From the NCBI GenBank assembly GCA_031266805.1, contig JAISAH010000005.1, positions 1 through 55,333 of the forward strand: a stretch of 55,333 nucleotides of DNA, given 5' to 3'. The position numbers and the translations under genes were made by a program. Shown in pieces: positions 458 to 50,251 of the stretch (the stretch's first letter is position 1; each line of letters begins with the position of its first letter). Under the pieces are notes generated by a model, which worked only from the letters and a program-made list of their open reading frames with translations, searched no databases and had not been told where the DNA came from. Source of the DNA: Gracilibacteraceae bacterium. GTDB taxonomy: Bacteria; Bacillota; Desulfitobacteriia; Desulfitobacteriales; Syntrophobotulaceae.

Positions 458-556
458 CAGGTACGAGACTGCCGCTTTAGCGGCGTAGTCGAGTCCGTAC
501 TGTGGCCTAGAGCGCCTTGCGCCACAGGCGCTTATTAGGCGGTCTTGCCAACAGTG
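458..556 (-). repeat. Distant inverted copy of the ~96-bp structured repeat
   Basis: Read on the minus strand this 99-bp segment begins CACTGTTGGCAAGACCGCCT and ends CTCGTACCTG, matching the four tandem units at 33590-33976. It keeps both hairpins, the AGCGCC/GGCGCT stem and the GCCGCT/AGCGGC stem, with a 3-nt insertion and a few substitutions. It has no start codon or protein-like frame. Confidence 0.85.
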
Positions 557-6344: not shown

Positions 6345-6442
6345 CGTCATTCCGGCTTTATGCCGGAATCCATGCTCCCGTCCGCCCGGAATAAGCGGGA
6401 GACAATGGAACATGGATTCTGGGACAAGCCCAGAATGACGGG
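6345..6442. repeat. MITE-like element with inverted ends, copy 2
   Basis: The 98-bp element starts CGTCATTCCGGC and ends GAATGACGGG, giving imperfect inverted termini. It contains two short hairpins, at 6345-6374 and 6412-6442, and no coding frame. It separates the glycosyltransferase from rfbF. Confidence 0.75.
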
Positions 6443-6450
6443 AAGGGGAC

Positions 6451-6466
6451 GGTCTTGCCAACAGTG
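6451..6466 (-). repeat. 16-bp terminal fragment of the ~96-bp structured repeat
   Basis: GGTCTTGCCAACAGTG is identical to the terminal 16 bases of the copy at 458-556 and lies nine bases after the palindromic element. The two repeat families therefore sit together here as they do at 432-556. Confidence 0.6.
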
Positions 6467-29775: not shown

Positions 29776-31083
29776 TCACCCCATCAGCAATTCCGGCAGG
29801 AACAGCACGATCTGGGGAAAAATCATGATCAGGGCGATACAGATAAAGATGGCGAAAAGAAACGGCCATATCCCTTTGAAAATAACAGGCAGCGGCACAT
29901 CCACCGCCACGTTTTTCGCCACATAAACGTCAATGCCGACCGGCGGCGTGATCATGCCCATACAGCAAACCAAAGTGATGATCACTCCGAACCAGATCGG
30001 ATCATAACCGATGGAGACGACCACCGGGTAAAAGATCGGCACAGTCAGCATGATCATCGGCAGGCTGTCGATAAAACAACCCGCGATCAGATAAACCACG
30101 AGGATGCAGACCATCGTCTGCCAGGCGGGGATATCAAACTGATAGAGCAGCCCGGTGATCGCGAGCGGGATCTGGGCTAAAGCGATGAAACGCCCGAATA
30201 TCGTGGCGCAGGCCACGATCAGCAGCACCATACCCACCGTCTTGGCGGTATCGTAGAGCGAGGCGACAAAACCCTTCCAGGACAGCTTGCGACGGACAAG
30301 CACCACGGCCAGCATGGCAAAAGCGCCGATCGCCCCGCCCTCTGTAGGCGTGAACCAGCCGGCCGACAGTCCGCCGACGGAAAAGATGAAAATAATCAGT
30401 GTCTCCAGGAGACCACCGCTGACCGACTTCGCCCGCTCCGGCCATGTCGATTTCTCGCCGCGGGGCGCCATCTCCGGATGATTGCGGGTCACCAGCCAGA
30501 TTGTGATCATAAAAAGCACCATCAGCAGAATACCGGCGCCGATGCCGGCTATAAAAATTCGGCCGATGGATTGTTCGGTCGCCACCCCATAGACAATCGC
30601 CGTCATGCTGGGCGGAATCAGCAGGCCCAAACCGCCGCCGGACGCGACACAGGCGGTGTAGAGCGAACTGTCATAACCCCGTTTTTTCATCTCCGGAAAA
30701 GCGATGGAACCGATCGTCGCCGTCGTGGCGGGGCCGGAACCGCAGACCGCGCCGAAGCAGGCGCAGGCCATTTCCGACGCCATTGCCAGTCCACCCGGCC
30801 AATGGCCGATCATTTTATAGGCAAAATCATACAAGCGGCTGCCGATACCGGAATGAAAGGCCAGAAAACCCATCCAGGCGAACATGGCCACCACGCTCAT
30901 GTTATAGGAAGAAAAACTGCTGAACATGTCAACCGAGACCAGCTTGATTGCGGCCGGCATATTGGTCAGGATACCAAACCCCACCATGCCGACCAGCATC
31001 ATGCCGGTGGCGATCGGCAGACCGAGCAGGACCAGCGCCAAAAACGCCAGGATACCGAGCAGGCCAATAATGACCGGACTCAT
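29776..31083 (-). CDS. dctM: TRAP transporter large permease (DctM)
   Basis: This 435-aa protein has about 12 membrane helices and DctM signatures such as GSGPATTATIGSIAFPEMKKRGY and GGLGLLIPPS. It forms the ion-coupled channel of a tripartite TRAP importer for organic acids. It overlaps dctQ by 4 bp and is the last gene of the operon; no terminator is visible in the 6-bp gap to paaK. Confidence 0.93.
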   Translation of the reverse strand: MSPVIIGLLGILAFLALVLLGLPIATGMMLVGMVGFGILTNMPAAIKLVSVDMFSSFSSYNMSVVAMFAWMGFLAFHSGIGSRLYDFAYKMIGHWPGGLAMASEMACACFGAVCGSGPATTATIGSIAFPEMKKRGYDSSLYTACVASGGGLGLLIPPSMTAIVYGVATEQSIGRIFIAGIGAGILLMVLFMITIWLVTRNHPEMAPRGEKSTWPERAKSVSGGLLETLIIFIFSVGGLSAGWFTPTEGGAIGAFAMLAVVLVRRKLSWKGFVASLYDTAKTVGMVLLIVACATIFGRFIALAQIPLAITGLLYQFDIPAWQTMVCILVVYLIAGCFIDSLPMIMLTVPIFYPVVVSIGYDPIWFGVIITLVCCMGMITPPVGIDVYVAKNVAVDVPLPVIFKGIWPFLFAIFICIALIMIFPQIVLFLPELLMG

Positions 31084-31583
31084 TTACCGACCTCCTTCCA
31101 GGCATGAATGTCGAGGACAAAATGCAGTAAACTGGTGATCGTATAAAACAGCATCCCCAGGAAACAGCCGAACGCGATGGGATAATATGGCAAAAACATG
31201 ACCCAAGTCACGTTGCTGTTCGCGTAAGTGCTGAGTCCGTAGCGAAAGAACTGTACGGTGATGATGCCCAGGGCGACAATGCTGATACAGGAGATCAGCG
31301 ACAAGATGACTCGCTGTAATGATCTGGGGAAAAATTCGCGGACAAAATCCACCTGAATGAAGCCTTTTTCCTTCTCAGTATAGCCCAAAGCAAACGCCGC
31401 GTTCAGCGCGGACAGGAATCCAACAATGTCTGTCAGGCCGGAAATAGGCGAGTGCAGCAGGATCCGCATGGCCACGCTGATCGTCACGACCACCATATTG
31501 GCAAAGATAAAGACGCTGGAGACGCCGCCGAGTATATCATCAAGCTTGTAAACGATCTTTTTAAGTTTTTCCAAGCGGGTCAC
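31080..31583 (-). CDS. dctQ: TRAP transporter small permease (DctQ)
   Basis: This 167-aa protein has four membrane helices and the DctQ core (ISVAMRILLHSPISGLTDI). It pairs with DctM. The gene follows dctP by 10 bp. Confidence 0.9.
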   Translation of the reverse strand: MTRLEKLKKIVYKLDDILGGVSSVFIFANMVVVTISVAMRILLHSPISGLTDIVGFLSALNAAFALGYTEKEKGFIQVDFVREFFPRSLQRVILSLISCISIVALGIITVQFFRYGLSTYANSNVTWVMFLPYYPIAFGCFLGMLFYTITSLLHFVLDIHAWKEVGK

Positions 31584-31593
31584 ATCCTTTTAA

Positions 31594-32691
31594 TCAATAC
31601 CGGGCGTTATACTTCTCCGCCAGAGATTTCAAGCGGTCAAGAGCCGCTTGCGCGTCGAGTCCTCTGGCCGCCCGCTCCCGCACCCACTCGTCCTGGAGCG
31701 GGGCCAGCGCCGCCCACCAGGTTTGCAGCGTCTCCAAAGGAACGTCGTAATACTCCATGCCGTTTTGTTCACCAAAGGTTATGCCTTCTTTATCCATTTC
31801 ATCCCACAGCGGCGCAATCCGGTCGACACATTCGGCGCTGACATCCAGAAAAACCTGCTGGACGGCAGGCGGGAGGGAATTCCAGCGATCCATATTCATC
31901 GCTATATAATGAGTTACAGTGGAAATGCCGGAGATATTGGCGTCGTATTTCAGCACTTCACCGAATTTCCAGTTGACAAGCGCCTCGGACGGCATGAGCG
32001 CCGCGTCGGCCGTGCCTTTCAGCAGCGCTTCATAAGTTTCCGCCGGCGTGATCCCCACAGCGGAAGCGCCAAGTGTTTCCACGGCGCCGATGGCATAGCC
32101 GGTCGCCCGGATCTGCACGCCTTTGAAATCGGCCAGCGTTTCGATCTTCTTATTCGTCAGCAGGTCTGAAGGCGACATGCCATAGGCCCACAGGTATTTT
32201 ACATCCCCCAATTCTGCAAAATCCGACCGGAACCACTCGTCGGCCGCGTAGGTGGCCGCCTGACTGCTGTTGAAGCTGATGCCGCTGAGAAAATAAGCGC
32301 TAATCAGCGGGAAGTAAGAGAAACTGTAGGAAGGGTCCGATTCCCCCATATCGATAATGCCGTTTTTCAGAGATTCGTAAATATCGGTATTTTTTACGAG
32401 GGTTTCGCCGGCATACTGAGTGATTGTGACCTTGCCTTCAGTCAATTCGTTGACGCGGTCACAAAAATAACTAAACACCTCATTGGCTCGATGCGAAGAA
32501 CCCATGCAGATCGCCCAATTGAGCGTCAGGGGCTTCATGTTCGCCAGCGCCGCCGCCAGGTCGTCCGCCGGCGCCTCTGTCCCGGATTGAGCGGGATCCT
32601 GAGCGGCCGGCGCGCCGCACGCCGCGAACAAAACCATGATGAGCAGAATACAGACGATACCGGGTGTTTTGCCTGAACTTCTCTTAATCAT
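31594..32691 (-). CDS. dctP: TRAP transporter substrate-binding lipoprotein (DctP)
   Basis: This 365-aa protein has a lipoprotein signal ending LFAAC with Cys25 as the predicted lipidation site. The binding-domain segment FKGVQIRATGYAIGAVETLG contains the Arg that grips a carboxylate in DctP proteins. The ligand is therefore probably an organic acid; its identity is not deducible. Confidence 0.92.
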   Translation of the reverse strand: MIKRSSGKTPGIVCILLIMVLFAACGAPAAQDPAQSGTEAPADDLAAALANMKPLTLNWAICMGSSHRANEVFSYFCDRVNELTEGKVTITQYAGETLVKNTDIYESLKNGIIDMGESDPSYSFSYFPLISAYFLSGISFNSSQAATYAADEWFRSDFAELGDVKYLWAYGMSPSDLLTNKKIETLADFKGVQIRATGYAIGAVETLGASAVGITPAETYEALLKGTADAALMPSEALVNWKFGEVLKYDANISGISTVTHYIAMNMDRWNSLPPAVQQVFLDVSAECVDRIAPLWDEMDKEGITFGEQNGMEYYDVPLETLQTWWAALAPLQDEWVRERAARGLDAQAALDRLKSLAEKYNARY

Positions 32692-32729: not shown

Positions 32730-33548
32730 CTAACTGTTCAGTTTCACTTCCTGATAGCCGATTTCTTTTAAACTGCCGGCGGAGAAACAACAAAGCAGCA
32801 CTAAATTTTCCGTACCGGTGTTCACATACTTATAAAGCTGACCGGCCTCATTATAAGCGGTGACATCGGCATAGAGCGGGTATGACTGATCGGGATAGAT
32901 CGCCAGACCCCGGCCGCTACGGACGAGAACGATTTCATCGGCGTTGTTGTTACGCGCGAAATCCCGCGGCGGGATCTGCGCTCCCGGCTGGAGAATGAAC
33001 TCCGCGAAGCTGATTCCGTCTTCTTCATAGACAATTTTGACGTCGACCAGAGGATCGTTCCACTCGGCGCCGGGCAGTTCCGCGCAGCGTTTGACCTGCC
33101 AGCCCGTCTCCTTGTGCCGCCGAGGGTCAAAATGGGTGCGGGAGCAGCCGTCCAGACTGCCGTTCAAAAAGACCGCAATCTCCATATGCCGCGGCGCGAC
33201 CGTCTCCATGCGGTGCGGCTGGCCGACCGCGTGACACAGGCAGTCGCCCGGCAGGAACTCAATATGCGTGCCGTCAGGGTAACTGAGGTCGCAGACGCTG
33301 TCCAGAAGATACTCTATTTCCACTCGATTGTCATGGAAAACAAAGCCTTCCCGCGGCGAAGTTCCCATGCCGGCCGCCTGTTCTACCCGGATGAGCCCCA
33401 GTTTGTCCGTGTTCCACATCCATTGCACGCAATGCCCTTTGTCCAGTTGGTCGCCGTCAAAACCGGGCGCCAAACGGGTGCGGGTTTCTGGTTCGTACTC
33501 TTTGGTTTTCAAATTAAGACTGTTATTCGCGTCGATAATGGTATACAT
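32730..33548 (-). CDS. Bicupin-like protein of the TRAP operon
   Basis: This 272-aa soluble protein looks like a double cupin. The first barrel has LPGDCLCHAVGQPHRME with a candidate metal His, and the second has QPGAQIPPRD followed by NADEIVLVRSGRG. Being first in the TRAP operon suggests it acts on the imported acid as a dioxygenase, isomerase or lyase. AAGGAGCG lies about 13 bases before ATG 33548, a long spacing. The upstream promoter region is occupied by the tandem repeat array. Confidence 0.55.
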   Translation of the reverse strand: MYTIIDANNSLNLKTKEYEPETRTRLAPGFDGDQLDKGHCVQWMWNTDKLGLIRVEQAAGMGTSPREGFVFHDNRVEIEYLLDSVCDLSYPDGTHIEFLPGDCLCHAVGQPHRMETVAPRHMEIAVFLNGSLDGCSRTHFDPRRHKETGWQVKRCAELPGAEWNDPLVDVKIVYEEDGISFAEFILQPGAQIPPRDFARNNNADEIVLVRSGRGLAIYPDQSYPLYADVTAYNEAGQLYKYVNTGTENLVLLCCFSAGSLKEIGYQEVKLNS

Positions 33549-33589: not shown

Positions 33590-33976
33590 CACTGTTGGCA
33601 AGACCGCCTAAGCGCCTGCGGCGCAAGGCGCTCTAGGCCCCAGTACGGACTCGACTAGGCCGCTGAAGCGGCAGTCTCGTACCTGCACTGTTGGAAAGAC
33701 CGCCTACTCAGCGCCTGCGGCGCAAGGCGCTCTAAACCACAGTACGGACTCGACTATGCCGCTAAAGCGGCAGTCTCGTACCTGCACTGTTGGCAAGACC
33801 GCCTAAGCGCCTGCGGCGCAAGGCGCTCTAGGCCCCAGTACGGACTCGACTAGGCCGCTGAAGCGGCAGTCTCGTACCTGCACTGTTGGCAAGACCGCCT
33901 AAGCGCCTGCGGCGCAAGGCGCTCTAAACCACAGTACGGACTCGACTATGCCGCTGAAGCGGCAGTCTCGTACCTG
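33590..33976 (-). repeat. Four tandem copies of a ~96-bp two-hairpin repeat
   Basis: Units span 33590-33685, 33686-33784, 33785-33880 and 33881-33976, each starting CACTGTTGG. Units 1 and 3 share CTAGGCCCCAG, while units 2 and 4 share CTAAACCACAG, so the array probably grew by duplicating a dimer. Each unit can form a hairpin AGCGCC/GGCGCT and a long one in which CAGTACG pairs with CGTACCTG and encloses GACT-GCCGCT / AGCGGC-AGTC. No ORF crosses the units convincingly. An inverted copy lies at 458-556. Confidence 0.92.
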
Positions 33977-34091
33977 CGCGGACAATGAAACTGCGGAACT
34001 GACTTCCCTCCTTCCCTGTCGTCGCCCGACTGTCCGCCGTGAACTGTGAATCAACCGGAATGAGATGATTTTATCCCGGCCGGCAAAGAAA

Positions 34092-34158: not shown

Positions 34159-34809
34159 CTAAAGGTATTGAGCCAGCTTGCCCGCGTCCAGCACTTTGAT
34201 ATTTTTCACGCCTTTTTGGATCAGGCCCTGCTTCTCGAAGTCGTTCAGATATTGGGTCACCCGCTGCCGGGTCGTGCCGAGCAGATTGGCTATCTCATCA
34301 TGAGTAAAGGCGATAGACGAGCTTTTATGGCGGCTGACGATCCCGTACTGGCAGGCGTCCAGTAAAAAACGGGCCAATTTCTGCGGCACCGTATTATAAA
34401 CGTCTTCCGCCTGCGATTGCGTGCAGCGCGCTTTTTTCACCAGATCCCAGCAGATCCTGTACATGACTTGCGGGTTTTCAAAAAGAAAGGCGATGAATTT
34501 ACTCCGGGAGACGGCGATGCAGCAGACTTCGGTGAGCGCCGTCGCCGAGCATATATTGCCCAGATTGTCGAATATCCCGCTCTGCCCGGTGAGCGCCGGA
34601 GGAAGCAGGAAGTGGATGATTTTTTCTTTGCCGTTTGGCATATAGATGCTGTTTTTAACGATACCGGCTTTGATGCAGTAGAGAAATTCGCTGGCTTCTC
34701 CTTGCATGAACAGCATCTCGCCGGCCTTGAAGGTCCTGGGACGCCCCAATTCCATGAGTTTTTCCCATTTTTCTTCGCCGATATCGAGGAGTTCTTCGAT
34801 CTTGGCCAT
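34159..34809 (-). CDS. Crp/Fnr-family transcriptional regulator
   Basis: This 216-aa protein has an N-terminal cyclic-nucleotide-binding-type beta roll (about 20-120) and a C-terminal winged helix (FTHDEIANLLGTTRQRVTQY near 170-190). No N-terminal cysteine cluster of FNR is present, so it probably does not carry an Fe-S cluster. ATG 34809 has GGAGG close upstream; GTG 34821 is an alternative. It lies upstream of, and codirectional with, the TRAP operon, whose control it may exert. Confidence 0.88.
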   Translation of the reverse strand: MAKIEELLDIGEEKWEKLMELGRPRTFKAGEMLFMQGEASEFLYCIKAGIVKNSIYMPNGKEKIIHFLLPPALTGQSGIFDNLGNICSATALTEVCCIAVSRSKFIAFLFENPQVMYRICWDLVKKARCTQSQAEDVYNTVPQKLARFLLDACQYGIVSRHKSSSIAFTHDEIANLLGTTRQRVTQYLNDFEKQGLIQKGVKNIKVLDAGKLAQYL

Positions 34810-34889
34810 GGCGCCCTCCACCGCTTGAAGTCACAAAGGGCTAAAAAAAGAGATTCCGGTCGAAATCAAAATTCATAGGCGCTCGCGCT

Positions 34890-39431: not shown

Positions 39432-39462
39432 ATGGATTCCGGAACAAGTCCGGAATGACGGG
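39432..39462. repeat. Palindromic dispersed repeat, copy 3
   Basis: ATGGATTCCGG and CCGGAATGACGGG flank a short loop. It lies between the DUF2089 promoter and the convergent-side end of the amidohydrolase gene. Confidence 0.78.
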
Positions 39463-50220: not shown

Positions 50221-50251
50221 CCCGTCATTCCGGCTTCATGCCGGAATCCAT
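50221..50251. repeat. Palindromic dispersed repeat, copy 6
   Basis: CCCGTCATTCCGGC and GCCGGAATCCAT. It overlaps the 3' end of the next gene and supplies its last codons and stop. Confidence 0.82.

Follow-up and report, generated by a model that had tools for sequence, protein, structure and literature searches.

Here, we provide evidence that the four tandem units at 33590-33976 of the window (the whole stretch of 55,333 nucleotides that was analyzed, from a Gracilibacteraceae bacterium contig) belong to a dispersed repeat family, here called X, which is very likely a non-autonomous, REP-targeting mobile hairpin element of ~96 bp. X is best filed as a small palindromic mobile repeat that is poor in target site duplications (TSDs), targets REPs and nests in itself. 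This reading draws on the dispersal of X, its exact ends, empty sites in a sister genome, a preference for one site and orientation, heterogeneous arrays and an in-frame insertion into a gene; from these we infer both a route of array growth and an enzyme, DEDD IS110/Piv-like or single-strand HUH-like, that acts in trans.

The array and its dispersed relatives

An earlier note on this DNA had described four tandem copies at 33590-33976, and TRF and a repeat search agree, giving four head-to-tail X units of 96, 99, 96 and 96 bp (period 96-99, TRF score 679) whose core motifs occur five times in the window against 0.01-0.04 expected by chance. The placement between a Crp/Fnr gene and an operon of cupin and DctP/DctQ/DctM genes, all on the minus strand, was likewise correctly read. 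The features of the window are as follows.

458..556, minus strand: lone full-length X of 99 bp, at a CGTC-REP base (CATTCCGGCTTCATGCCGGAATCC)
6345..6372, plus strand: CGTC-type REP without X
6413..6440, minus strand: CGTC-type REP without X
6450..6466, minus strand: X 5' fragment, 17 bp, after CCCGT
29776..32691, minus strand: dctP/dctQ/dctM of the TRAP transporter, lying downstream of the cupin gene
32730..33548, minus strand: cupin-domain gene (Pfam PF07883), with the array in its 5' leader, 42 bp from the start codon
33580..33589, plus strand: left flank of the array insertion, CCGGCTGAGC
33590..33685, plus strand: X unit 1 (96 bp), ends CACTGTTGG..GTACCTG
33686..33784, plus strand: X unit 2 (99 bp, subtype longer by 3 nt)
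33785..33880, plus strand: X unit 3 (96 bp, same as unit 1)
33881..33976, plus strand: X unit 4 (96 bp; 5' half like units 1 and 3, 3' half like unit 2)
33977..33987, plus strand: right flank of the array insertion, CGCGGACAATG
34159..34821, minus strand: Crp/Fnr-family regulator, upstream of the array and on the same strand as the cupin-TRAP operon
39433..39460, minus strand: CGTC-type REP without X
50223..50250, plus strand: CGTC-type REP without X

Two alternating subtypes had been proposed, with unit 1 equal to unit 3 and unit 2 to unit 4. The first pair is indeed 100% identical, but the second reaches 94.9%, with diagnostic bases in common and a 3-nt indel and two substitutions between them. 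Unit 4 is a mosaic, with a 5' half as in units 1 and 3 and diagnostic bases of unit 2 in its 3' part, so the proposed duplication of a dimer is insufficient in its simple form and needs a conversion or crossover in addition.

The earlier note had asked for a search of the genome and its relatives, and had named a lack of further genomic copies as the result that would speak against it; X proved to be dispersed. The assembly that contains the window (G000; 3.38 Mb, 152 contigs) holds 22 full copies, another whose end is truncated or degenerate (C133) and ~20 fragments, and five full copies plus partial ones are present in the same-genus sister Gracilibacteraceae bacterium MAG Gx485_bin213 (G001), both assemblies being fragmented. 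Boundaries are sharp and common to the copies, CACTGTTGG at one end and GTACCTG at the other, and gene contexts and orientations vary. Several of the 5'-anchored fragments (17-46 bp; L024, L031-L035) stop near CCTA(A), right before a strong GC hairpin. A second two-hairpin repeat, whose second hairpin is related to that of X (..CCGCTGAAGCGGCCAGTCTCAGTTGTCG), has two full copies in G000 (L065 on C76, L068 on C149) and many modular pieces in G004 (L066, L070).

X is known so far from one genus of Clostridia only: when 74 genomes of the order were searched with a covariance model, none but G000 and G001 gave a match, a pattern of 20 specified bases run across 84,980 species genomes matched solely the sister MAG, and plasmid, phage and viral contig collections gave 0 matches. 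The CGTC-type REP pattern co-occurs with X in the two genomes (121 intact REP copies in G000, 68 in G001), and neither was found in G002-G004, searched with the same REP pattern. X matched no described repeat family in an Rfam scan, the one comparison made, and the papers listed by a literature search with the repeat sequence were unrelated.

Filled sites, empty sites and the REP target

Around the array locus G001 is ~95% identical to G000, and there CCGGCTGGGC joins CGCGGACAATG directly, where G000 has CCGGCTGAGC, 387 bp and CGCGGACAATG. All four units are missing from the sister without a scar, at a seamless GC^CG junction; its cupin-TRAP genes are intact, and the stretch of the cupin gene and the TRAP operon start is retained at 94% identity. 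Because this empty site is clean, we read the array as an insertion and not as a conserved promoter or RNA, and since flanking direct repeats are missing, the event was presumably an insertion rather than a precise loss. G001 offers two further empty sites, both for single copies. At C59 the sister reads CTTCTCGT^CATTCC, its REP there being of a different loop subtype; C94 falls within an rdgB-like gene, and here the genomes differ at two bases on the left of the junction. The array's empty site is thus the only fully clean one. Duplication amounts to at most 1 bp (C) at the array and at most CA at the other sites. Among the roles that the earlier note had entertained, the mobile hairpin unit is the one favored by this dispersal, by the exact empty site of the whole array together with the two single-copy ones and by a repeated target.

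The C94 copy lies in frame within the rdgB/HAM1 gene of G000 (L006:1170-1880, minus strand) and adds 32 codons. The protein, with the added residues HCWQDRLSACGARRSRPQCGLDYAAKAAVSYL, matches Ham1/RdgB, and solved RdgB homologues align on either side of the insert; the sister gene is intact and its protein lacks the 32 residues. This is the one clearly intragenic X among 23 sites.

Twelve of the 23 independent X sites fall at one and the same nucleotide (^) in the base of the palindrome CGT^CATTCYGG...CCRGAATCCA, always in the same orientation, and 11 of the 12 have GT at -2/-1. Within G000 alone, 11 of 18 sites occupy this position (P ~1e-44 against random placement, given its 121 intact REPs). 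Right flanks start with C in 21/23 cases and with CA in 18/23, CA being found at both junctions in 18/23; left flanks, REP sites aside, are variable (GAGC, TTAT and GCGG among them). About half of the insertions lie away from the canonical REP site, whether within CGTC-ATTGCGAG palindromes, a GGGGAGGTG repeat or unique DNA. Another dispersed repeat (..CACCTCCCCTTGCAGGGGAGG..) also hosts X (L048, L019, L025). The host palindrome CGTCATTCYGG..CCRGAATCCA has the hallmarks set out for CGTC REPs (PMC3733652), namely a CGTC tag, a stem of 8-9 bp with AT first pairs, a short loop of 4-5 nt and a CCA tail. The earlier judgment that the repeat is not recognizable as a BOX, REP or ERIC class holds for X itself, but misses that roughly half of the copies sit inside CGTC-tagged REPs.

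Insertion, array growth and competing explanations

In the mechanism we favor, X would insert via precise junction-to-junction recombination, with target duplication not beyond 1-2 bp. It would prefer one nucleotide at the CGTC-REP base (CGT^CATTCYGG) in a single orientation and, less often, would use looser look-alikes, mostly ^CA or ^C and often at hairpin bases. Its mover is probably a site-specific (IS110/Piv- or HUH-like) enzyme, of a kind not seen in this MAG. As candidate mobilizers, Y1_Tnp/RAYT (PF01797) and both IS110-type DEDD domains (PF01548/PF02371) were missing from the fragmented, incomplete assemblies of G000 and G001, and a search for reverse transcriptases (RTs) returned only one partial RT, in G000. 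Multicopy IS are often lost from fragmented MAG assemblies, so this absence is weak negative evidence; it nevertheless counts against the mobile-element reading, as do the lack of terminal inverted repeats in X, the insertions off the canonical REP site and the two less clean empty sites.

The X head CACTGTTGG resembles the REP target CATTCCGG, which suggests that an X already in place is a target too, and this likeness can account for head-to-tail arrays: new copies would land ahead of a resident X, whose head serves as the target, and the resulting dimers would then enlarge through unequal exchange. Two paralogous segments carry one X (C128) and two (C58), and the extra C58 unit differs in subtype from its neighbor, pointing to re-insertion, as local duplication alone would not be expected to yield it. 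With its two subtypes and repeated first unit, the window array fits re-insertion with subsequent expansion and exchange, presumably in that order, and may represent one such insertion and expansion in the leader region of the cupin-TRAP operon. Two paralogous IS605-type tnpB units adjoin X in these segments (L122 on C58, L124 on C128), and ~ten other G000 sites have pieces of ~60 bp that match the tnpB unit at its 3' end. We do not regard tnpB as the driver of X: both tnpB neighbors are paralogous segments, and other X copies have no tnpB.

The fixed CGT-X-CATTCYGG arrangement at 12/23 sites, and the differing loops of the X-bearing REP and its sister REP at C59, could also be read as a composite X-REP unit in which REPs carry the array and its relatives with them as they spread, instead of being entered by X. 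We consider this improbable, given that X also occurs in CGTC-ATTGCGAG palindromes, the GGGGAGGTG repeat and unique sequence (the window array, rdgB), and that X-bearing and free REPs have the same loop subtypes. That the array grew from one ancestral X by replication slippage alone, at a locus without mobility, would agree with the identity of units 1 and 3 and the diagnostic bases common to units 2 and 4, and seems to us quite improbable: the sister's site is empty of any X, so at least one X arrived, and units 1 and 2 belong to different subtypes (91% identity), both having nearer relatives at other places in the genome. An assembly artefact has to be weighed as well, the contig coming from a fragmented genome of 152 contigs and the k119 form of the G001 contig names suggesting short-read assembly, a kind of data for which 96-bp tandem units are hard. 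It is hardly credible here, as the longest exact repeat inside the array (105 bp) falls short of a k of 119, provided that G000 was assembled like G001, distinct variants mark the units and a separate dimer exists at C58.

The two stable hairpins per unit reported in the earlier note were confirmed on both strands, with RNA folds of -46 (forward) and -51.6 (reverse) kcal/mol (z -3.7 and -4.8) and ssDNA folds at z -3.9 and -5.3. Such stability, the array's position 42 bp ahead of the cupin start codon and substitutions per column that are ~2.6x rarer in paired than in unpaired positions on the forward-strand fold (~2x on the reverse) are what one might see in a structured RNA, be it a small RNA or a regulatory leader, that acts on the TRAP operon among other genes, and the array may add 387 nt of structured sequence to the cupin leader. 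This explanation is nonetheless very improbable. Stem covariation is at the level of shuffles (a double change in 1/29 pairs, with 114/500 shuffles as high), the stems being nearly invariant; the Rfam scan of the window found nothing above gathering score at the array, only two tRNAs elsewhere; gene contexts and orientations are variable, one copy lying within coding sequence; and the sister operon does without the array. Covariation thus gives no sign of RNA selection, and the sameness of the copies is explained by recent spread. A role as insulator, also raised earlier, or as promoter is unsupported in view of the same array-free operon, and a promoter scan against shuffles found no sigma-70-like promoter or terminator around the array beyond chance. 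For genome reading this carries a caution: a strongly folded, promoter-proximal tandem array can be a recent insertion, not a regulatory element.

Returning to X as a mobile element, a bolder version, which we put forward tentatively and think rather unlikely as a whole, would make this 96-bp hairpin pair a minimal cassette for recombination, placed seamlessly by an RNA- or hairpin-guided recombinase into the REP point and into its own head, with CGTC REPs as landing pads and rdgB as a domesticated in-frame insertion.

X among known repeats and insertion systems

CGTC-tagged REPs make up one of the two large superfamilies of such palindromes, listed in five phyla without Firmicutes and with no dedicated transposase reported (Di Nocera et al. 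2013, PMC3733652); our data extend CGTC-like REPs to Clostridia, absent from that 2013 survey. The genus studied here offers filled and empty sites in two genomes ~95% alike at the compared loci, which bears on how these REPs move. X itself is not of their kind, being three times longer, with two hairpins, no constant CGTC tag and no constant CGT before it. Nor does it resemble GTAG REPs of the RAYT system, as it measures 96 bp, has ends without GTAG and comes without PF01797 in G000 or G001, and its variable left flanks are unlike those of IS200/IS605-derived elements (PATE), which have a fixed target of 4-5 nt 5' of their left end. Integron attC sites were dropped as a candidate on inspection by eye, the ends of X having no paired R boxes. 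With MITEs of the BOX/ERIC/Correia type X shares a short, non-coding, multicopy, interspersed hairpin form, mostly intergenic placement and polymorphic insertion, but it has neither terminal inverted repeats (CACTGTTGG.. and ..GTACCTG are not mutual inverted repeats) nor a TSD beyond C at the array or CA at other sites.

Rickettsia palindromic elements (RPEs) are, like X, palindromic elements with an open frame that are found in frame in housekeeping genes, as X is in one case (rdgB, C94). The likeness is one of form and placement, and nearly half of R. conorii RPEs are intragenic (PMC10969869), against 1/23 X sites clearly so. By lying in a conserved enzyme gene, this copy adds a case of in-frame insertion to the question of CGTC REP mobility.

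Closer in arrangement are the NIMEs of Neisseria (dRS3 plus RS elements), which likewise combine CGTC-type REPs with longer repeats (30-160 bp) in intergenic arrays; dRS3 is classed as a CGTC-1 REP (PMC3733652) and is used as an integration target by a Neisseria phage transposase (PMC3898611, PMC4471427). X differs from them in being a single 96-bp element at one fixed REP nucleotide, in also making head-to-tail arrays off REPs and in belonging to Clostridia. Among IS, IS621 of the IS110 type inserts precisely at a fixed REP position (PMC11208160), and X agrees in its fixed position with a conserved core (CGT^CATTCYGG, 12/23) and in the CA at both junctions in 18/23 sites. Unlike such IS, X is 96 bp long and non-coding and has no DEDD gene found in G000 or G001. 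A fixed REP point without target duplication is in line with a site-specific enzyme of IS110/Piv type, as a likeness and not a membership, and X would be a second element for which the REP base serves as landing site, with self-nesting giving rise to head-to-tail arrays.
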